From Lactiplantibacillus brownii (lineage in GTDB: Bacteria > Bacillota > Bacilli > Lactobacillales > Lactobacillaceae), in the NCBI RefSeq assembly GCF_031085375.1, contig NZ_JAVCWF010000001.1, forward strand, positions 372,001-436,000: a DNA stretch of 64,000 bases, given 5' to 3'. Both the position numbers and the translations under genes were made by a program. The notes beneath the pieces were generated by a model, which saw only the letters and a list, made by a program, of their open reading frames with translations, was not told the origin of the DNA and ran no database searches. The first letter of the stretch is position 1. Each line of letters starts with the position of its first letter. Positions 17,835 to 27,034 of this stretch are shown here, piece by piece.

Positions 17835-18005
17835 AAAATCATCCCACCATAATTAGTTGACGCATTAAATATTCTGCTTAGTAAAATTTTACCATTTTGG
17901 AACTAAGCTTGCCAAGGTGTTTTGCGGAACAATTTTGTTTTTAGTAGAAATTTAAGGGATATCACTTAACAAACTGTAGTGGTTCTATTCTAAATAATTG
18001 TGTAA

Positions 18006-18399
18006 TGGCCGTCTCCATGGACCAGCACGTTCACCGTGGAGGCAGACCTGTAGCCAAAGTTCGGTCTACAGGGCGATTTCAAGCCGAAAGTCACGTCTTA
18101 AAAGTCGGCCAGACACTAACCTGGGTAAGCTCGCCCAGCTAAGTGTCTTGACACGGTGAACATACTGGTCCACTCCGACGTCAGATAGTGGCTATTTGTA
18201 AGCTATCTGATGTGATCCAATTAATATTAAGGTTCGTTAATTAGCGCAGGGCGGGCTGGATGATGCTCAGTGGTGAAATTTTCCTTTGCTGGTGAATTTC
18301 CAGCTTAGGAAAAGCCCGGCTTGTGAGCCCGACCTTTGGCTCACAAACGTGGCCACCACGTTCCAGCATCAAGCCAGACCAACCGGAGCGACATATTAT
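18006..18399 (+). ncRNA. Structured intergenic element, copy 1 (long form)
   Basis: This fills most of the 17835-18593 gap, which has no coding frame. Helices readable here: P1 GACCAG/CTGGTC (18020-18025/18165-18170) and GTTCACCGTG/CACGGTGAAC (18029-18038/18152-18161) around a 3x3 internal loop; P2 CCTGTAG/CTACAGG (18047-18053/18066-18072); P3 GCCGA/TCGGC (18083-18087/18105-18109); P4 AGACACT/AGTGTCT with inner CTGGG/CCCAG (18111-18148); and CAGATAG/CTATCTG (18182-18209). P1 closes over P2-P4 like a large cloverleaf. Related copies are at 23088 and 25111, with compensatory changes in P1 and P2. Family not recognised. Only this copy carries the extra module at about 18250-18374. Confidence 0.7.
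18250..18374 (+). ncRNA. Extra multi-hairpin module in element copy 1
   Basis: About 125 bases absent from the other two copies. CTGGATGATGCT (18255-18266) pairs with AGCATCAAGCCAG (18365-18377), allowing a small bulge, and encloses three hairpins: TTTTCCT/AGGAAAA with inner GCTGG/CCAGC (about 18280-18313), TTGTGAGCC/GGCTCACAA (about 18321-18346) and ACGTGG/CCACGT (about 18347-18361). The other copies join directly at TCCAG. Confidence 0.6.
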
Positions 18400-18593
18400 G
18401 CGGATACTTCTAAATACAGACAGCTGTACTGAATGTCACAAAACATCACATGTGATTAGTAAAAGTCACTAAATTAACTTATTAATTATTGGATAATTGC
18501 AAAAAATCTGTAGCGGATTAAAAAATAATAAGATATTTTCATAATTAATGTTATAATTTCTTACATCAAGTGGTCTGGATAGGAGTTGTAATT

Positions 18594-19913
18594 ATGAGTG
18601 CTGCAAATTCAACGTTCTTAGTTTTGTCTAGTATATTGGTATTGTTCATGACACCCGGCCTAGCGTTTTTCTATGGCGGGTTAGTCACCAAGCGGAACGT
18701 TGTGAATACGATGTTATCAGTATTCATGATTTGTGGCTTGGCAATTTTGCTCTGGGTGTTAGTGGGCTACTCACTTTCTTTTTCAGGTGATTTTGGCGGC
18801 GTCGTTGGGGATTTGAAGGCAATCTGGTTGCACGGCGTGGATCTGTCGGCATTAACGCCAACCAAGATTCCGACTGGACTGTATATGATTTTTGAAATGA
18901 TGTTTGCCATCATCACACCAGCACTGTTCGTTGGTGCGGTCGTTGGTCGGATTCGATTTAAGTTCTTGTTATCCTTCATCATTTGCTGGTCCATTTTGAT
19001 CTACTATCCTATGGTTCATATGGTTTGGGATAACGGCTTTTTGGCTCATCTCGGTGTGATTGATTTCGCCGGTGGAACGGTCGTGCATATTAATGCTGGG
19101 ATTACCGCGCTGGTGTTGTCAGCATTCTTAGGACCGCGTTACAACTATAGTAAGGGGAAGCCACAGGAACATTACAACATTTTGTGGGTACTCTTAGGTA
19201 CGGTTATTCTCTGGATTGGCTGGTATGGGTTCAATGCGGGTTCGGCGTTAGCGATGAATGGCATTGCCGTTCAGGCCTTCTTGACAACGACCGTAGCGAC
19301 CGCGACTTCCATGATGACGTGGATGGTCATTGATATGATCACTAAAGGTAAACCAACGTTGGTTGGTGTTTGTACCGGGACGCTCTGTGGCTTAGTTGGG
19401 ATCACACCGGCTTGTGGGTATGTGACGACTAGTGGGGCTTTCTGGATTGGGCTGATTGCCACGATGACAAGCTATGCCTTCATCACATTGCTCAAGCCAC
19501 GCTTAGGCATTGATGATGCTTTGGATGCATTCGGCTGTCACGGAGTTTCTGGAATCATGGGTAGCATTATGACGGGGCTATTTGCCACCAAAGCTGTTAA
19601 CTCAACGATCACGACCAATGGGTTATTTTACGGCGGTGGGTTTAAACTCTTTGGCCTACAATTACTTGCGACAGGCTTCACGATTGCCTTTACGACGGTA
19701 CTTTGTATCGGAATCATCGTAATTTTGAAGCGGGTCGTGAAGATGCGAGTCGATGTCGACGAAGAAAAACTCGGTTTGGACCAAGGGGAGCATGGGGAAG
19801 TTGCGGACTACACCGTGCCAATGAGTTCCGAACTGACCGATATTCAGAATCATAGCAATGAATTTCAAGGTCAACTGGCTAAATTAATGAATAATCATCA
19901 ACGCTTTCGGTGA
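18594..19913 (+). CDS. amtB: Ammonium transporter, Amt/Mep/Rh family
   Basis: A 439-residue membrane protein with 11 expected helices. The two pore histidines are present in GGTVVHINAG and DAFGCHGVSGIMGS. It conducts ammonium/ammonia across the membrane. AGGAG at 18581-18585 sets the start at 18594; a GTG eight codons earlier has no ribosome site. TATAAT at 18552-18557 is a likely -10. A C-terminal cytoplasmic extension of about 50 residues follows the last helix. No glnK (PII) gene lies next to it, unlike the common arrangement, and a terminator follows at once. Confidence 0.95.
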   Translation: MSAANSTFLVLSSILVLFMTPGLAFFYGGLVTKRNVVNTMLSVFMICGLAILLWVLVGYSLSFSGDFGGVVGDLKAIWLHGVDLSALTPTKIPTGLYMIFEMMFAIITPALFVGAVVGRIRFKFLLSFIICWSILIYYPMVHMVWDNGFLAHLGVIDFAGGTVVHINAGITALVLSAFLGPRYNYSKGKPQEHYNILWVLLGTVILWIGWYGFNAGSALAMNGIAVQAFLTTTVATATSMMTWMVIDMITKGKPTLVGVCTGTLCGLVGITPACGYVTTSGAFWIGLIATMTSYAFITLLKPRLGIDDALDAFGCHGVSGIMGSIMTGLFATKAVNSTITTNGLFYGGGFKLFGLQLLATGFTIAFTTVLCIGIIVILKRVVKMRVDVDEEKLGLDQGEHGEVADYTVPMSSELTDIQNHSNEFQGQLAKLMNNHQRFR

Positions 19914-19927
19914 AAGTGGTAAAGTGA

Positions 19928-19961
19928 TGAGTCTGGGGTTTCTGACCAGGCTTATTTTTTT
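19928..19961 (+). terminator. Rho-independent terminator of amtB
   Basis: AGTCTGG pairs with CCAGGCT (one G-U) around a 9-base loop, followed by TATTTTTTT. Confidence 0.75.
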
Positions 19962-20204
19962 ATACTTGAAAATTTTTTATTTTTTTAATTATGATGAAAC
20001 TGCTTGGTCCTTGCTCGTCCTTAGTGGGGCTAGCAGTAAAATATTAATTGTTTTATAAAAGCTGTGATAACGGCATTTTAAGGTGGTTTGTAAGCTTAAC
20101 GAATGAATGATAACGGTAAAGGGTACATGTACAACGATGGTAACTTGGAGGTGTTGAGCAAGGAAGTACTACTTGATAACAATAAATACGAGGAGGAAAT
20201 AATA

Positions 20205-22901
20205 ATGATGCGCAAGTTTTGGCGATATTTGTTACTTGCAATAACTGGTTTAGCGCTGATGGTTCTGAGTCCACCAATTTTAGGGCAGGCGAAGGAAATT
20301 ACGTCAGTCGTTGGACTTGATGTCAATAGTGCGGTCATTAAAGATGCCAATGGCAAGGTTTATTCGAATGATGCGCAGCTTCCAAAGGGCGAATACACGG
20401 TAAACTATGCTTGGAGTATTCCAAACGGTACCGATGTTAGATCTGGCGACACAATGATTTTCCAGTTGCCACAAAATATCAATATTCCAGAGCCGGATGA
20501 TTTCAGTTTAACTTCCAGTAGTGGGAGCGGGACGATTGGCCGAGCTCATATTGATCAAGGTGCTTCTTACGGTGTAATTACTTTAAATCGATATTTACAA
20601 ACCAATACGAAGAATCGGAAAGGCTGGATCAAAGTCAGTGTGGAGAGTAAAGCCACTGAACCAGATGGCCCGATTTCGATGTCAAAAACGGCTAGCTGGG
20701 TTGATCCAACAAAGCCTAATTTGATCAACTGGCAATTAGCGGTTCGTCCAGATGGCAATACGTTGACTAATCCAGTCATTAAAGATACCTTCAGTGGCAA
20801 TCAAAAGTATGTCGCTGGGAGTGTTAAAGCGACGGATGCCGCGGGTCAAAATATTCCGGTAACTGCTTCTGGTAGCTTGCTGAGCAATACGATGACCTTT
20901 AAGTTGTCAGGGTCGTATACGACTGACATTACATTAACTTATCAGACACGTCCTAAGTTAGCAACTGGTGCTGATACATTCAACAACAATGCCACTTATA
21001 CGGACGATGGTGGGCATCAAGCGTCAGCGAATGCGTCCATTGATCGTGAAGGCGAAACGACACCACCGGAAAATCCTGGGACTGATGAACCTGGTCAAAA
21101 GGAACCGATTGCGATGTCTAAGTCCGTTAGCTGGGCTGATCCTGAAGATCAAACAAAGTTAAATTGGTCCGTTGAAATTAATGATAATGGGAATAAGTTA
21201 GTCAATCCACAGATTGTTGATCATTTAAGCAAGAATCAAACTTATGTGGATGGTAGTGCGAAGTTAGTCAATGCTTACGGTGATAAAGTTATGGTCGCAG
21301 TAAGCCAGAGTTCAAATGGTCAATCATTAGTTTTCAGTGCCACTGGGACGTTTACGACTAATCTACATTTGACTTATCAAACGACTACGACTGGCAAAGG
21401 CGCGGAAACGTTTAGTAACGATGCCACTTATAAGGATGATAACGGCAACAACGCTAATGCGACTGCCGAAATCGACCGGACCGTGGTGCCAGAAGAACCA
21501 ACTAAAGAGCCAATTACGATGGCGAAATCAGTTGCTTGGGCTGATCCTAAAGATCAAACAAAGTTGAACTGGAAGTTGGCGATTTCGGCTAATGGTAATA
21601 AATTAGTCAATCCAACGATTGTTGATAAAATGAGTGCTAACCAGACGTTTGTTGATGGGAGTGCTCGGGCTGTCACCGCAACGGGTGCAACCGTTCCAGT
21701 TATCGCGACGGCTAATGGGACTGAAATAACCTTCAAACTTAGTGGGACTTACGAAGATAATTTCGATTTAACGTATCAGACCACTACTGATGAAGCTGAT
21801 ACCGCTGCAACTTATGCTAATGTCGCTGTTTATGAAGATGAAGCTAACAACAATGCGTCAGCCGATGCTTCGATTGACCGCGATGCCACAGAAGTTGAAC
21901 CAGCTAAAGATCCTATTAGTATGACTAAAGAGGCTGCTTGGAGTGATCCAAACGACCGGACTAAGATCAACTGGACATTAGCTATTAAAGCTAATGACAA
22001 TCAGTTAATTAATCCAGTGATTACCGATGAACTCAGTGATAATCAAACGTATGTGAGTGATAGTGCTCAGGCGGTTGATGAAGATGGTCAACGGTTGCCG
22101 TTGAACGTTAGTGTTGCTGGGAATGTGATCACATTTAGTTTAGCTGGTAAGTTTGAAACGAATATGACGATAACCTATCAGACTAAGACCAATAAAGATA
22201 CAGGTGCTGCAACCTTTGACAATGCCGCCCTTTATACGGATGACGATGGCAATAATGCATCTGCCGATAGCTCTATTGATCGGCCAGCAGTTGAAGAACC
22301 TGAAGAACCAGGGACAACTGAACCTGAAGAACCAGGGACAACTGAACCTGAAGAACCAGGGACAACTGAACCTGAAATGCCAGGTACGACTGAACCTGAA
22401 AAGCCAGGGACAACTGAACCTGAAGAACCAGGGACAACTGAACCTGAAATGCCAGGTACGACTGAACCTGAAAAGCCAGGGACAACCGAACCTGAAATGC
22501 CAGGTACGACTGAACCTGGGAAACCAGGAACAACCGAACCTGAAATGCCAGGAACAACTGAACCTGAAAAGCCAGGGACAACTGAACCTGAAATGCCAGG
22601 TACGACAGAGCCGCAACAACCAGGAACTACCATACCAGTAAATCCTGATATGACAGCACCTAGCACGACAATGCCGACAACACCTAATGCACCAGCAACT
22701 GCGACACCAAGTGTGCCAAATACAATTATGCCAAATGGCAATGGCGCAACCAATACGCCAGCACCATATAGTCCAGCTTCTGGTCGTTTGCCACAAACTA
22801 GTGAACATCGGAACTCGGCTGTTGACACGATTCTTGGTTGCTTAGCCTTAGTACTAATTTTGGTGTTAGGTTACTTGGGCTTTCGTCGTCAGACACGATA
22901 A
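20205..22901 (+). CDS. LPQTS-anchored Cna-like adhesin with four repeats
   Basis: An 898-residue sortase substrate. Signal peptide 1-29 (LLLAITGLALMVLSPPILGQA); an N-terminal adhesin-type Ig-like domain (about 30-155); four tandem repeats of about 115-130 residues, each opening with a (S/A)MSKS-x-x-WADP-like strand, then D-x-x-L-x-x-NQ-x-(F/Y)V, and closing with (N/A)ASID; a Pro/Glu/Thr stalk of 14 octapeptides; LPQTS at 862-866, a membrane helix and RRQTR. The layout resembles collagen-binding or aggregation-type adhesins; the ligand is unknown. Start 20205 is chosen because AGGAGG lies eight bases upstream and a signal peptide follows; the longer frame adds a non-signal leader. Confidence 0.9.
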   Translation: MMRKFWRYLLLAITGLALMVLSPPILGQAKEITSVVGLDVNSAVIKDANGKVYSNDAQLPKGEYTVNYAWSIPNGTDVRSGDTMIFQLPQNINIPEPDDFSLTSSSGSGTIGRAHIDQGASYGVITLNRYLQTNTKNRKGWIKVSVESKATEPDGPISMSKTASWVDPTKPNLINWQLAVRPDGNTLTNPVIKDTFSGNQKYVAGSVKATDAAGQNIPVTASGSLLSNTMTFKLSGSYTTDITLTYQTRPKLATGADTFNNNATYTDDGGHQASANASIDREGETTPPENPGTDEPGQKEPIAMSKSVSWADPEDQTKLNWSVEINDNGNKLVNPQIVDHLSKNQTYVDGSAKLVNAYGDKVMVAVSQSSNGQSLVFSATGTFTTNLHLTYQTTTTGKGAETFSNDATYKDDNGNNANATAEIDRTVVPEEPTKEPITMAKSVAWADPKDQTKLNWKLAISANGNKLVNPTIVDKMSANQTFVDGSARAVTATGATVPVIATANGTEITFKLSGTYEDNFDLTYQTTTDEADTAATYANVAVYEDEANNNASADASIDRDATEVEPAKDPISMTKEAAWSDPNDRTKINWTLAIKANDNQLINPVITDELSDNQTYVSDSAQAVDEDGQRLPLNVSVAGNVITFSLAGKFETNMTITYQTKTNKDTGAATFDNAALYTDDDGNNASADSSIDRPAVEEPEEPGTTEPEEPGTTEPEEPGTTEPEMPGTTEPEKPGTTEPEEPGTTEPEMPGTTEPEKPGTTEPEMPGTTEPGKPGTTEPEMPGTTEPEKPGTTEPEMPGTTEPQQPGTTIPVNPDMTAPSTTMPTTPNAPATATPSVPNTIMPNGNGATNTPAPYSPASGRLPQTSEHRNSAVDTILGCLALVLILVLGYLGFRRQTR
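22297..22620 (+). repeat. 24-base coding repeats (Pro/Glu/Thr octapeptides)
   Basis: About 13-14 tandem 24-base units encode E-P-E-x-P-G-T-T with x varying among E, M and K (G-K or Q-Q once). Units alternate GGGACAACT and GGTACGACT spellings, showing a higher-order repeat of two or three units. It forms the cell-wall-spanning stalk of the adhesin and is a likely site of length variation. Confidence 0.9.
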
Positions 22902-22942
22902 TTTAGAAAGGTGGATTGCCTCATCGCAGTCTTAACCCAAAA

Positions 22943-23023
22943 CCAATTAGCTGTTTTAACTAGTTGGCATCAGACCCCATAAGTCTAACCGTCATTAACA
23001 GTTAGATTTATGGGGTTATTTTT
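22943..23023 (+). terminator. Tandem hairpins ending the adhesin transcript
   Basis: A first hairpin, CCAATTAG/CTAGTTGG (22943-22967), is followed by a 16-base-pair hairpin starting ACCCCATAAGTC (22974-23016) and a TATTTTT tail. Confidence 0.85.
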
Positions 23024-23087
23024 GTCGTCATTATTTAAGGAAAGTGACTGGGTGCATCATAGCCATCGTATTTATTAAAATAGGACA

Positions 23088-23361
23088 TTAATTGTCCGTC
23101 TCCGTTGACCAGTTCGTTTACCGTGGGGCAGGCAACCTGCAGCCAAAGTTCGGTCTGTAGGGCGCTTTCAAGCCGCAAATCACGTCTTAAAAGTCCGCCA
23201 GACACTAACCTAGGACAGCTCACCCAGCTAAGGGTCTCGACACGGTGAATGTACTGGTCAATTCCGACGTCAGATAGTGGCTATTTGTAATCTAATTGAT
23301 GTTAAGGTTCGTTAATTAGCGCAGTCCAGCCCAACCGGAGCGGCAAGTTAAGTGGGTACTT
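23088..23361 (+). ncRNA. Structured intergenic element, copy 2
   Basis: Second copy of the 18006 element, between the adhesin terminator and rpiA. P1 is GACCAG/CTGGTC (23107-23112/23254-23259) and GTTTACCGTG/CACGGTGAAT (23116-23125/23241-23250); P2 is CCTGCAG/CTGTAGG (23136-23142/23155-23161). Pairs that differ from the other copies become G-U pairs only when read as + strand RNA, which supports that orientation. P3 and part of P4 are decayed. A 24-base-pair hairpin with a T tail follows at 23423, so a discrete transcript could end there. Confidence 0.65.
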
Positions 23362-23422
23362 ATAAATGTGATAATCACACTACACCGGCAACAGCTTTAA
23401 ATCATAATTTCAATTGATTGAT

Positions 23423-23485
23423 ATTAAATTTAGCCGGTGATTGATTTTTCACTAGAATCAATCACCGGCTAAATTTAATTTTTTA
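23423..23485. terminator. Long terminator hairpin before rpiA
   Basis: A 24-base-pair perfect stem (ATTAAATTTAGCCGGTGA... at 23423-23446 with 23456-23479) has a TTTTTT tail on the + strand, reaching the rpiA stop codon. It can end + strand transcription of the element and the rpiA transcript from the other side. Confidence 0.8.
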
Positions 23486-24154
23486 GAATAGTTGTTCGAC
23501 CTTACCAGTGGTTTCATCACCAAGGAGCGCATTTGTCACTAACCGATCAAAATAAGACGTTTCAACAACGCCAGCGAGTGTGGCAAAATCGTTATTTAGC
23601 GCGGCTAGATGTTCATAACTTGGAAAATGGCAGTCGATTAAAAAGTTGCCATTGTCCGTCAAGGTCATGCCATCACGATTGGTTGCGGTCCGAATTGTGG
23701 GTTGGCCGCCGTGCTCGGAAATGGTGCGCATGACGAGTGCAAGGGCCTTAGGTAAGACTTCTAAAACTAACGGTGTCTTCGTATCAAAGGTCGTTTGAAC
23801 CAGTCGTGAGCTGACTGTTAATAACCAGTATTCATCGGCTAAGGTCGCAATGATCTTTTCGTTAGCGTGAATCCCGCCGCCACTTTTTAGGGCGGAACCG
23901 TGCGTATTCAGTTGATCACAGCCGTCAAACGCGATGTCCACGCGATCACAGTATTGCGGGTCAATGACGGTATATCCTAAAACTGTCGCCAGCTGGCGTG
24001 TTGTTGGCGATGGCGTGACAACTTGAATCTCGTTGACAAGATTGGCCGCTTCTTTGACGAGTTCGGCAACCGTGGAACCGCCGCCGAAACCGACGACCAT
24101 GCCGGGTTTGATTAAAGGTAAAGCTTGTTGAACAATGGTTTGTTTAATGGACAT
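23483..24154 (-). CDS. rpiA: Ribose-5-phosphate isomerase A (divergent RpiA)
   Basis: A 223-residue cytosolic enzyme that would interconvert ribose 5-phosphate and ribulose 5-phosphate in the pentose phosphate route. The family blocks are recognisable but altered: GFGGGST for the usual GLGTGST, FDGCDQLN for DGADE-like, and LKSGGGIHANEKI for the K-GGGGA-x-x-EK-type loop that holds the catalytic Glu. AGGAGGG lies seven bases before the ATG. Genomes of this group often carry a second, more canonical rpiA, so this may be a paralogue with a shifted sugar substrate; that is inference. Confidence 0.85.
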   Translation of the reverse strand: MSIKQTIVQQALPLIKPGMVVGFGGGSTVAELVKEAANLVNEIQVVTPSPTTRQLATVLGYTVIDPQYCDRVDIAFDGCDQLNTHGSALKSGGGIHANEKIIATLADEYWLLTVSSRLVQTTFDTKTPLVLEVLPKALALVMRTISEHGGQPTIRTATNRDGMTLTDNGNFLIDCHFPSYEHLAALNNDFATLAGVVETSYFDRLVTNALLGDETTGKVEQLF

Positions 24155-24191
24155 TTAAGTCCCTCCTGAAAGTTAGATGTTGTGGTCACAA

Positions 24192-24308
24192 AGCTGGTTC
24201 AGCCCTTAGTAATGAAGAGAACTGACCAGTAATTATTTCCATAATAGCACTCGCGATGAGATAGCGCGATTAACTAACGAGGGTGGTACGATAAATCTCG
24301 TTATTTTC
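24192..24308 (+). promoter_or_regulatory. Possible decayed T-box leader
   Basis: GAGGGTGGTACG (24279-24290) matches most of the conserved T-box core AGGGTGGTACCGCG. AACGAG (24276-24281) can pair with CTCGTT (24297-24302), followed by ATTTT. Upstream hairpins CTGGTTCAG/CTGACCAG and CGCG/CGCG are present, but a full Stem I with specifier loop is not seen. The next + strand gene is a secreted protease, an unusual T-box target, so this is probably a remnant. Confidence 0.35.
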
Positions 24309-24407
24309 TGATAAATTGGACTGTTGAATGGCGTCCGGTCGTGAGCTGGTTTTAAAATAAAAGTACATTGATGGCTACCTCAATTGTGGTGAAAAGAGGT
24401 AACGGCA

Positions 24408-24968
24408 ATGAAGAGAGAGCGAATTCGATTAGGTGTGTTAGTGTTGGCAACAACTTTGGTTCTGAATATTGGCGTGGTGGCGGAGGCTTCGTCAGCGACG
24501 CCGTTCGGAGCTAGTCGCTGGCGTGAACCACGTGTCACCTATGTTGTTAGTGGGTCCCGTTATTATCGGAACATTTACGCCACTGCGATTCGCGCTTGGA
24601 ATTCAACGGGTCAATTTAGATTCATTCAGGGTTCCAATGCGCATCATCAGGTGACGCTAACAACCAGTAATTCGACGACCGGCCAGTATCATATGTTGGC
24701 TGGAATCACGTTTACGTATGGTCCTCAAAAAGGATACTATAATCAGGCCAAAGTTTTGCTGCTAACCAGAAATTTAGCAACGTACCATTACACGACTTCC
24801 AACCAGATTCACGTTGCCGAACATGAGCTCGGTCACGTGATGGGGTTGCAACATAGCACTGCGCGGAATAGTGTAATGCTCGCCGACAATCGTTATAACG
24901 GCATTAGTAGGAATGATATCACTGCAGTCAAAAAGCGGTATCATACGCCAGTTGGTAGGCATTCGTAA
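24408..24968 (+). CDS. Small secreted zinc metalloprotease (matrixin-like metzincin)
   Basis: A 186-residue protein with a signal peptide (about 1-28, ending VVAEASS) and a compact metzincin catalytic domain. HELGHVMGLQH at about 140-150 is a complete HExxHxxGxxH zinc site with the catalytic Glu, and SVML after it fits the Met-turn. The N-terminal strand-helix part (VTYVVSGS, then TAIRAWN) resembles M10A/M12 folds. No pro-domain cysteine switch or anchor is visible, so it is likely released. AGAGGT lies about 9 bases upstream. Substrate unknown. Confidence 0.88.
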   Translation: MKRERIRLGVLVLATTLVLNIGVVAEASSATPFGASRWREPRVTYVVSGSRYYRNIYATAIRAWNSTGQFRFIQGSNAHHQVTLTTSNSTTGQYHMLAGITFTYGPQKGYYNQAKVLLLTRNLATYHYTTSNQIHVAEHELGHVMGLQHSTARNSVMLADNRYNGISRNDITAVKKRYHTPVGRHS

Positions 24969-25011
24969 GCTTAGTTTTTCAACTATAGTTGGTGGTTGGC
25001 TATCGATTTGA

Positions 25012-25093
25012 AAAACGTGGTGTAGACCCCACAGGCATGATTTGCAATCGCCACGTTTTGACTGAGCCCAGGCTAAAACCTAGGCTCTTTTTT
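25012..25093 (+). terminator. Hairpin and rho-independent terminator of the protease gene
   Basis: AAAACGTGG/CCACGTTTT (25012-25020/25051-25059) is followed by GAGCCCAGG/CCTAGGCTC (25064-25072/25079-25087, one mismatch) and six Ts. Confidence 0.8.
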
Positions 25094-25110
25094 ATTGCTG
25101 AAATGTGAGG

Positions 25111-25398
25111 TAACAGCCCATCTCCGTTGACCAGCACGTTCGTCGTGGGGGCAGACCTGCAGCCAAAGATCGGTCTGCAGGGCGCTTTTAAGCCGAAGCT
25201 CCCGTCTTAAAAGTCGGCCAGACACTAACCTGGGTGAGCTCGCCCAGCTAAGTGTCTTAACACGACGAACGTACTGGTCAACTCCGACGTCAAATAGTGG
25301 CTAGTTGTAATCTTTACTGATGTGATCTGATTAATATTAAAGATTCGTTAACTAGGGCAGTCCAGACCAACCGGAGCGGCAAGTTAAACAGATACCTT
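25111..25398 (+). ncRNA. Structured intergenic element, copy 3
   Basis: Third copy, in the 24969-25528 gap. P1 is GACCAG/CTGGTC (25129-25134/25274-25279) and GTTCGTCGTG/CACGACGAAC (25138-25147/25261-25270); P2 is CCTGCAG/CTGCAGG (25156-25162/25175-25181); P3 GCCGA/TCGGC and P4 AGACACT/AGTGTCT with CTGGG/CCCAG are intact. Compared with copy 1, two P1 pairs (A-T to G-C and C-G to T-A) and one P2 pair change on both sides, keeping pairing. It ends about 20 bases before the -35 of the multicopper oxidase promoter. Confidence 0.7.
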
Positions 25399-25418
25399 GT
25401 AAATAGCTCCGTTAGTCG

Positions 25419-25447
25419 TTGACACTGTTTTAAAATAATTCTAAACT
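25419..25447 (+). promoter_or_regulatory. Promoter of the multicopper oxidase gene
   Basis: A consensus TTGACA (25419-25424) and TAAACT (25442-25447) with 17 bases between them, about 80 bases before the start codon. Confidence 0.6.
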
Positions 25448-25528
25448 AAAGTTATGTGTTAGTAAGCGCTGACACGGATTAGGGACTCAACGGATAATTG
25501 TTGTTTAGAATTTTAAGGGGATGTCGAA

Positions 25529-27034
25529 ATGGCAAAGAAAGTCTATACCGATTATTTTTTTGATGAACCAGCTTATAATACTCACGATGGGGGCTACATT
25601 CCGTTAGTGACACCGAAAATGCCACCACAACCGTTAGCGATTCCACCGTTATTGAAGCCAGATAAGCAAACGGCGACGGATGACTATTACACGGTGACTG
25701 CGGAAGCTAGCGAAACACAATTTTTACCAGGTAAGAAGACTAAAACCTGGGGCTACAATGCAGGTTTCTTGGGTCAAACCATTGTTTTTCACAATGGTAA
25801 ACATACGCATATCGATTTAAAAAATACTTTACCTGAATTAACGACTTTTCATTGGCATGGCTTGAACGTGCCAGGGCCAATCACTGATGGTGGCTGTCAT
25901 GCGCCGGTCTATCCTGGTAAGACGAACCATATTGATTTTGATGTGGATCAACCAGCTGCGACAATTTGGCTACATGCTCATCCGTGTCCATCTACTGCGA
26001 CCCAAGTTTGGAAAGGCTTAGCAGCGATGGTCCTCATTAAAGATGATGTAGAAGACCAATTACCATTACCGCGCAATTATGGCGTCGATGATATTCCAAT
26101 GGTCTTGCAAGATCGTGAATTCCATGAAGATAACCAGTTTGATTATCGGGCGGACTATGATCCGGATGGCGTGCAAGGGCATACGGCCTTAGTTAATGGG
26201 ACCGTTAATCCTTACTTTGACGTGACCACTCAACGCGTGCGGCTGCGGATTTTAAATGGGTCCAACCGGCGTGAATGGCGCTTACACTTTGATGATGATC
26301 TGGAATTTGCGCAAGTCGGTTCTGACGGCGGGATCATGCCAGCACCCGTTTATTTGACCAAATTAATGGCAACTTGTGCTGAACGTGATGAAATCGTGGT
26401 GGACTTTGGCAATTACCAACCAGGCGATGAAGTCACGTTGATGACGGATGACACGCCATTGTGCCATTTCCGTATCAAGGCCTTTGAACCAGACAACACT
26501 AAGTTACCAGATCGGTTGGTTGATATTCCAGATGAGACGCCGACACCGGGATTACCCGTACGGAAGATCACCATGGATGGCATGGATGAAGAAGTCGCCA
26601 TGGATCATAAGAAATTTGACATGCAACGGATTGATGCGCGCCAAAAAGTTAACGATGTGGCGATTTGGGAAATTACCAATACGAATAGTACGAAAAATGG
26701 GATGGTTCATCCATTCCACGTCCACGGGACACAATTCACGGTATTAGCCCGTAATGATGGTCCGGTTTATCCAAATGAACATGGTTGGAAAGATACGGTC
26801 GGGGTTAATCCTGGTGAAACGGTTCGAATCAAAGTTCGGTTCAAGTTGACCGGGGTCTACATGTACCATTGCCACATTATCGAACATGAAGATGGTGGCA
26901 TGATGGCGCAGATTGAATCCTATGATCCAGCCCATCCAAAGACGTATCATTTAATGGATATGACCACTTTGCGTAATGCGTTTGCAGAAGAACAAGGGGT
27001 CAAGCCGGAAGATGTTTGGATGCCTGGAATGTAA
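25529..27034 (+). CDS. Multicopper oxidase (laccase-like)
   Basis: A 501-residue three-cupredoxin oxidase that would couple one-electron oxidation of phenols, amines or metal ions to reduction of oxygen to water. All four copper-ligand motifs are intact: HWHG (N-terminal cupredoxin), WLHAHP, HPFHVHG, and HCHIIEHEDGGMM with the type 1 Cys, His and axial Met. No signal peptide is visible (starts MAKKVYTDYFF), so it is probably cytoplasmic, as for described L. plantarum-type laccases. AAGGGG precedes the ATG. Monocistronic, with its own promoter and terminator. Confidence 0.93.
   Translation: MAKKVYTDYFFDEPAYNTHDGGYIPLVTPKMPPQPLAIPPLLKPDKQTATDDYYTVTAEASETQFLPGKKTKTWGYNAGFLGQTIVFHNGKHTHIDLKNTLPELTTFHWHGLNVPGPITDGGCHAPVYPGKTNHIDFDVDQPAATIWLHAHPCPSTATQVWKGLAAMVLIKDDVEDQLPLPRNYGVDDIPMVLQDREFHEDNQFDYRADYDPDGVQGHTALVNGTVNPYFDVTTQRVRLRILNGSNRREWRLHFDDDLEFAQVGSDGGIMPAPVYLTKLMATCAERDEIVVDFGNYQPGDEVTLMTDDTPLCHFRIKAFEPDNTKLPDRLVDIPDETPTPGLPVRKITMDGMDEEVAMDHKKFDMQRIDARQKVNDVAIWEITNTNSTKNGMVHPFHVHGTQFTVLARNDGPVYPNEHGWKDTVGVNPGETVRIKVRFKLTGVYMYHCHIIEHEDGGMMAQIESYDPAHPKTYHLMDMTTLRNAFAEEQGVKPEDVWMPGM

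Follow-up and report, generated by a model that had tools for sequence, protein, structure and literature searches.

A dispersed intergenic repeat of Lactobacillaceae built from inverted, covarying modules: a candidate folded-DNA element

The DNA analysed here (the window) is a stretch of 64,000 nucleotides of Lactiplantibacillus brownii, positions 372001-436000 of a 3.0-Mb contig with dnaA at its start, and contains three copies of a structured intergenic element that had been described, from the letters alone, as probably a large noncoding RNA (the original prediction). The three copies exist and the pairings quoted for them are correct letter by letter: copy 1 pairs GTTCACCGTG with CACGGTGAAC and copy 3 pairs GTTCGTCGTG with CACGACGAAC in the main helix P1, and CCTGTAG/CTACAGG stands against CCTGCAG/CTGCAGG in hairpin P2, confirming compensatory pairs in both. 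The boundaries given for the copies were off (Table 1). Copy 2 extends from about 23052 to 23385, as measured between its outer repeats, the right end being a 7-mismatch match, and the bases 23386-23480, which had been included in it, are flanking DNA with, on inspection, a terminator-like hairpin of their own. A long inverted repeat at 23400-23490, after copy 2 and between convergent open reading frames (ORFs), resembles a bidirectional terminator and lies outside the element. The approximately 120 additional bases of copy 1 correspond to a second module, D2 (18250-18378), which was lost from copies 2 and 3, both retaining the tail of D2; on inspection, the deletion lies between CAG repeats. 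Outer repeats are not recognisable in copies 1 and 3 at a threshold of 7 or fewer mismatches. Copy 3 is preceded by an intrinsic terminator (25063-25094), and the TTGACA promoter of the next gene follows it (25419).

Table 1. Parts of the three copies of the element in the window.
Feature	Position	Strand	Remarks
Copy 1, module D1	18010..18182	+	P1 strands 18020-18038 and 18152-18170 enclose P2, P3 and P4
Copy 1, AT-rich linker from D1 to D2	18183..18249	+	
Copy 1, module D2	18250..18378	-	related to D1, inverted with respect to it
Copy 1, conserved right tail	18375..18396	+	CCAGACCAACCGGAGCGACAT; overlaps the end of D2
Copy 2, left outer inverted repeat	23052..23075	+	GTGCATCATAGCCATCGTATTTAT
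Copy 2, module D1	23097..23272	+	P1 strands 23107-23125 and 23241-23259
Copy 2, right tail	23324..23347	+	D2 deletion immediately upstream, between CAG repeats (inspection)
Copy 2, right outer inverted repeat	23362..23385	-	7 mismatches to the consensus
Copy 3, module D1	25119..25291	+	P1 strands 25129-25147 and 25261-25279
Copy 3, right tail	25359..25383	+	D2 deleted
Copy 3, approximate interval missing in relatives	25095..25418	+	missing in L132 (G009), L134 (G013) and four more distant relatives

At least 63 copies of module D1 are present in the same chromosome, 59 found by a profile at more than 100 bits and 4 in later stretches, and the 59 are mostly intergenic by a simple ORF call, with 13 overlapping a short ORF of 80-122 codons. 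When copy 2 was used as a query against its own genome, 63 matching pieces were obtained, 40 of them being D1 (the best 40 of 121 candidates scored). A 24-base motif occurs at 53 genome sites and a 30-base D2 motif, with up to 3 mismatches, at 92 sites (68 exact), compared with 0 for the reversed control of each. Both strands carry copies, and the common + orientation reported originally is true of the window only. A full copy begins with the outer inverted repeat GTGCATCGTAGC.ATCATATTTAT, continues with D1, an AT-rich linker, D2 and the tail CCAGACCAACCGGAGCGGCAAG, and closes with the outer repeat in inverted form; the outer repeats are degenerate. Each module is a unit of about 130-170 bases. 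One long stem, interrupted by an asymmetric loop (TGGAAC/TGA), encloses a hairpin whose loop motif is fixed and which bears a bulged T; another long stem contains a fixed A.A mismatch, and D1 has one further hairpin. Reversed, D2 resembles D1 in its hairpin loop (GCC-AAAG-nn-CGGTC) and stem plan, and the two profiles cross-match weakly, that of D1 with loci of D2 type, L125 and L089 among them (E about 1e-8) and that of D2 with 4 of the 59 D1 copies (E 0.002-0.009). Judged from this likeness and these cross-matches, two related modules in inverted arrangement make up the element.

D2 could be excised from 45 of the 59 copies: 33 short forms (128-130 bases), 10 long forms (about 122 bases longer) and 2 that are cut off. 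The long variant (L005, G000:C1:2057788, and nine others) carries its additional sub-domain of approximately 122 bases within the P4 stem. Among the 33 copies with a short D2, pairwise identity rises from 0.16-0.17 in the flanks, which are unrelated to one another, and 0.37-0.39 in the outer repeats to 0.55 in the linker, 0.80 in the tail, 0.87 in D1 and 0.91 in D2, and this unequal divergence rules out an even neutral decay of dead copies. In the closest pair of copies, the linker and D2 are 0.98 identical and D1 is 0.89 identical, which suggests that the copies are probably mosaics.

Covariation was assessed in two alignments, A1, with 56 D1 sequences (46 of the 59 own copies and 10 from five other species), and A2, with 49 hand-picked D2-type modules (6 own, 32 from the same genus and 11 from other genera). 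Changes on both sides were found in 28 of the 52 pairs of A1, compared with 8.9 +/- 1.9 in shuffles and 4-9 in slid versions, and in 28 of the 36 pairs of A2, compared with 18.2 +/- 1.5 in shuffles; double-change cells in A2 numbered 312, compared with 85 in shuffles, and one-sided cells 9. The observed values were reached by 0 of 500 shuffles on all measures except the further pair types of A2 (131 of 500). The shuffle controls take no account of sequence relatedness, and the slid-partner controls, which score far below the true pairing in both alignments, agree with them. The predicted fold is thus strongly supported by covariation, and its unpaired parts (the asymmetric loop TGGAAC/TGA, the bulged T and the A.A mismatch) are almost fixed across genera. 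The 3x3 internal loop of P1 in the original prediction does not hold for many copies, its three positions being paired in 38, 35 and 48 of the 56 A1 sequences. Double changes that far exceed single ones (312 compared with 9) are also expected where one event alters both arms, as in template-switch (quasipalindrome) correction during replication, which would keep stems perfect, so that the covariation would reflect mutation and not selection, and the element would be an old, inert family of miniature inverted-repeat transposable elements (MITEs). The decay of copies by hairpin deletion, seen on inspection, and the absence of an autonomous partner among the sequences searched are in keeping with such a history. 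Template-switch correction could add double changes, but it would erase the mismatches, the bulged T and the asymmetric loop, whose retention across genera it leaves unexplained, and the 5' half of D2 is almost invariant in its own genome (68 of 92 30-mers identical); we regard it as quite improbable.

Covariation alone does not show RNA. A fold at the RNA level tolerates G-U pairs on one strand, and the changes in copy 2 had been read in this way. The two G-T pairs in its P1 are indeed present on the + strand, but they are not general, the 59 own D1 copies containing 77 G-U cells (36 in one column), 91 A-C cells and 2981 Watson-Crick cells. Counted by columns, D1 has 28 G-U and 33 A-C, a small strand difference; in the non-majority cells of the 46 own D1 copies the ratio of A-C to G-U is 69:24, and ten D1 modules from other species contribute 8 G-U and 6 A-C cells. 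The 1758 cells of A2 comprise 14 G-U, 45 A-C and 1625 Watson-Crick, with 7 G-U and 14 A-C after reduction to one module per genome (20), and 7 and 19, respectively, by columns. By comparison, RNase P from 20 of the 21 genus genomes, handled like the modules but with its structure predicted from its own alignment, gave 334 G-U, 4 A-C and 1791 Watson-Crick cells out of 2137, and a tRNA control of only 6 sequences gave 12, 0 and 113. Departures from the majority pair were distributed 58:4 between G-U and A-C in RNase P and 14:45 in A2 (Fisher p 3.6e-16, the rows being related). Wobble on either strand accounts for 3.4% of the cells in A2 and 4.6% in A1, compared with 15.6% for G-U in RNase P. This scarcity relative to RNase P makes it more likely that the fold is selected in DNA, or required on both strands, than that it is selected in one RNA strand. 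In a passage of PMC2864571, G-U pairs decide on which strand the L17 downstream element is placed, and STAXI is discussed there as possible single-strand DNA.

In an inverted module pair, a single transcript cannot read both modules in the same sense. The arrangement of neighbouring genes does not reveal a clear orientation preference either, 14 of the 59 D1 copies lying in tandem with the same orientation, 21 in tandem with the opposite orientation, 16 between convergent and 8 between divergent genes. The element could be a large structured noncoding RNA, or a divergent or convergent RNA pair, that spread as a repeat and whose fold is selected in the transcript, an explanation in line with the deep covariation and the invariant unpaired motifs across genera. 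If any strand were favoured, it would be the one opposite to that counted, given the excess of A-C over G-U in A2 and in the own D1 copies; the leftover excess in A2 would equal G-U on the opposite strand in about 2.6% of cells, and a need for both strands to fold as RNA would likewise exclude wobbles. The rarity of wobble on either strand, the unclear gene orientation, the lack of an Rfam match and a strand difference by columns that is small in D1 and larger in A2 nevertheless make this explanation unlikely. Of the original prediction, the structured, covarying, multi-copy intergenic element outside named families is upheld by the covariation tests, the genome survey and the Rfam scans, whereas its assignment to RNA is not, with wobble rare, G-U no commoner than A-C, the modules inverted and gene orientation unclear. 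A mobile repeat whose palindromes are needed at the DNA level, which the prediction had set against its own interpretation, fits better, although no described repeat that matches was found.

A D2 covariance model (R1) matched 92 of the 301 Lactobacillaceae genomes sampled, spread over 14 of the 40 genera; the model was built partly from some of the 301 genomes, and module counts are minima, with the best 11 candidates scored per genome, a ceiling that was often reached. DNA search with a single D1 copy found only 18 of the 301, and blast with a full copy matched 14 of the 21 genus genomes, the own genome included. An exact 30-base pattern yielded at least 120 loci with 256 modules (255 distinct), these counts being lower bounds. 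Hosts among the matches listed include Lactiplantibacillus songbeiensis, dongliensis, nangangensis, daoliensis and pingfangensis, Lacticaseibacillus chiayiensis, jixianensis and zeae, Companilactobacillus musae, Lapidilactobacillus bayanensis, Levilactobacillus namurensis and Schleiferilactobacillus shenzhenensis. Within the 120 listed loci, neighbouring modules separated by less than 700 nucleotides form 85 pairs, all distinct, of which 75 are in +- order, none in -+ order and 10 in the same sense. In four loci of genus g16 (L116, L119, L124 and L127) the modules are divergent; they resemble the others in the P2 loop but differ in their stems, and they lie either inverted or in tandem. Modules also appear to occur in the gyrB-gyrA region of three related species (L114 and L123 on the gyrA side, L115 on the gyrB side, as read from the flanks only), which suggests an old shared insertion.

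Searches of plasmid and phage collections by blastn and of viral contigs with one exact D2 pattern gave no match. In Rfam, no match to the element was obtained for the window at gathering score; positions 17850-25530 gave 13 matches at E up to 10, all far under the gathering scores and mostly to microRNA families, and six relatives gave a lysine riboswitch elsewhere only, so that a curated Rfam family is ruled out by these scans. No tRNA or tmRNA is present in the window. A description of the element was not found in the open-access literature searched, a body of work outside which most subscription journals lie; the genome list of PMC2267715 includes Lactobacillus johnsonii, and 'plantarum' is absent from the portion of its text consulted. 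Two further observations concern neighbouring parts of the window. Positions 22293-22640 hold, on reading, an EPGTTEPE-type tandem repeat inside a 932-codon ORF (20103-22901) that is probably a surface protein. At 24278-24304, upstream of a metalloprotease-like ORF, GAGGGTGGTACG resembles the remnant of a T-box antiterminator, with no Rfam match at gathering score.

The reading that we favour, with moderate confidence, is that of a dispersed chromosomal folded-DNA repeat of Lactobacillaceae, recognised by its shape and resembling an outsized repetitive extragenic palindromic (REP) sequence, bacterial interspersed mosaic element (BIME) or MITE. We infer folding as DNA in the cell, a recogniser and past or present mobility, which might be combined as follows. 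Each module would fold as a single strand or as an extruded cruciform, with conserved loops and mismatches that would allow recognition by shape even as the letters of the stems drift. Recognition would fall to a recombinase or transposase acting in trans, or to a DNA-binding protein of the host, which spread the copies or keeps them. Some copies in the own species also carry outer inverted repeats, often adjacent to TA, in the manner of a MITE. Synteny of the genes to either side of the copy-3 site is conserved in relatives, and 6 of the 8 relatives aligned (out of 20) lack an element there. The site is clearly empty in G009 and G013, where a terminator is followed by a promoter, and G018, G019, G011 and G020 lack the element in more diverged intergenic DNA; no target duplication could be read. 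Some REP sequences have been claimed as terminators or mRNA stabilisers, and bidirectional 3'-end elements of either kind would agree with the mostly intergenic location of the copies, several of which directly follow terminator-like hairpins on inspection. Since a terminator is already present at the orthologous site where the element is missing, 8 of the 59 copies lie between divergent genes and the modules have no closing T run on inspection, a role at 3' ends appears very improbable.

Several observations weigh against a folded-DNA repeat. With regard to the wobble comparison, prediction of the RNase P structure from its own alignment itself holds A-C low, and one D1 column has a T.G majority (27 of 56 rows). 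The outer repeat is recognisable, at 7 or fewer mismatches, in only 26 of the 59 copies; by this measure neither end can be recognised in 33 copies, and one or both ends are missing in 48. TA beside outer repeats is reminiscent of IS630/Tc1-type MITEs, but it is far from universal, adjoining the left end in 7 of 18 cases, the right end in 6 of 19 and both ends in 3 of 11. These counts used a fixed 24-base consensus at the same threshold, which may misplace the ends of some copies. At the copy-3 site, G001 and G003 carry other versions of the element, of D2 type, and modules may therefore have been replaced in place there. No IS630-type DDE_3 gene was found in the own genome (G000) and no Y1_Tnp match in G000, G003 and G009, the latter two being module-rich; Y1_Tnp is present in 13 of the 21 genus genomes, including the module-rich G017. 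Six wider +- pairs were examined for ORFs lying within or across them, and reading of the translations, without a Pfam run, revealed no transposase. Solitary modules make up 58 of the 178 distinct modules away from locus ends in the 120 listed loci. Constraint is strongly uneven along the copies (linker 0.55, D2 0.91), which are therefore more than dead insertions in even decay. Six outer-repeat matches outside the first D1 set, considered as a possible autonomous partner, are internally deleted copies, and no larger partner element was found in the stretches examined, in the own genome and in relatives.

The 92 D2 sites skip 439 kb of the chromosome (G000:C1:1472271-1911072, 1.47-1.91 Mb), roughly opposite dnaA, a gap that arose under uniform placement in a fraction of 5e-5 of 20,000 trials. 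One degraded copy lies inside this gap, at 1.761 Mb. High-scoring matches occur at 1.47 and 1.76 Mb of the 3.24 Mb of G015, whose origin was not located, and the gap may therefore not be general across species. Orientation is not biased with respect to replication, 42 of the 92 D2 sites being co-oriented when the terminus is taken at 1.5-1.8 Mb. We tentatively raise the possibility that Lactobacillaceae chromosomes contain many copies, about 100 in the own genome, of a shape-coded DNA site that a putative structure-specific protein moves or uses to organise the chromosome. In the own genome the D2 motif is missing from the 439 kb roughly opposite the origin, and blastn found no related sequences on plasmids or phages. 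If the folded-DNA reading is right, the element would be a widespread class of DNA site with its information in its shape, in food and gut bacteria that include genetically tractable species, and the reading of folded DNA at many chromosomal sites would become testable. Covariation-based RNA pipelines could label such an element a large noncoding RNA, and counting G-U versus A-C helps to tell the two apart.

In build and spread, the element appears analogous to BIMEs and MITEs, a likeness that, in the tests made, falls short of membership in either. GOLLD, ROOL and HEARO are large, ornate bacterial noncoding RNAs, with which the element shares a large multi-hairpin structure, whereas it has no Rfam match and its wobble pairs are rare. 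MITEs with TA target duplication include RUP and Correia elements, and bcr1 of Bacillus cereus is a further close parallel. As in these, the copies are dispersed and non-coding, some have terminal inverted repeats and TA, and an empty site exists in relatives; in contrast, most copies here have outer repeats that are degenerate or cannot be recognised, conservation lies in the internal module pair and DDE_3 was not found in the own genome. Integron attC sites, which are folded single-strand DNA, differ from one another in the letters of their stems but preserve the fold and the bases left unpaired. A passage of PMC8632094 terms attC sites structured DNA elements. The modules here share the variable stem letters and the conserved fold and unpaired bases but are larger and occur in inverted pairs, and no integron context was noticed, none having been looked for. 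REP/BIME sequences of enterobacteria are palindromic units of about 30 bases, read as folded single strands by Y1 transposases of the RAYT (TnpA-REP) type. The units described here are longer, at 130-170 bases with several hairpins, and Y1 matches were not found in the own genome, G003 and G009; the likeness to REP/BIME lies in palindromic units, inverted pairs (75 of 85 close pairs) and many intergenic chromosomal copies (92 D2 sites).

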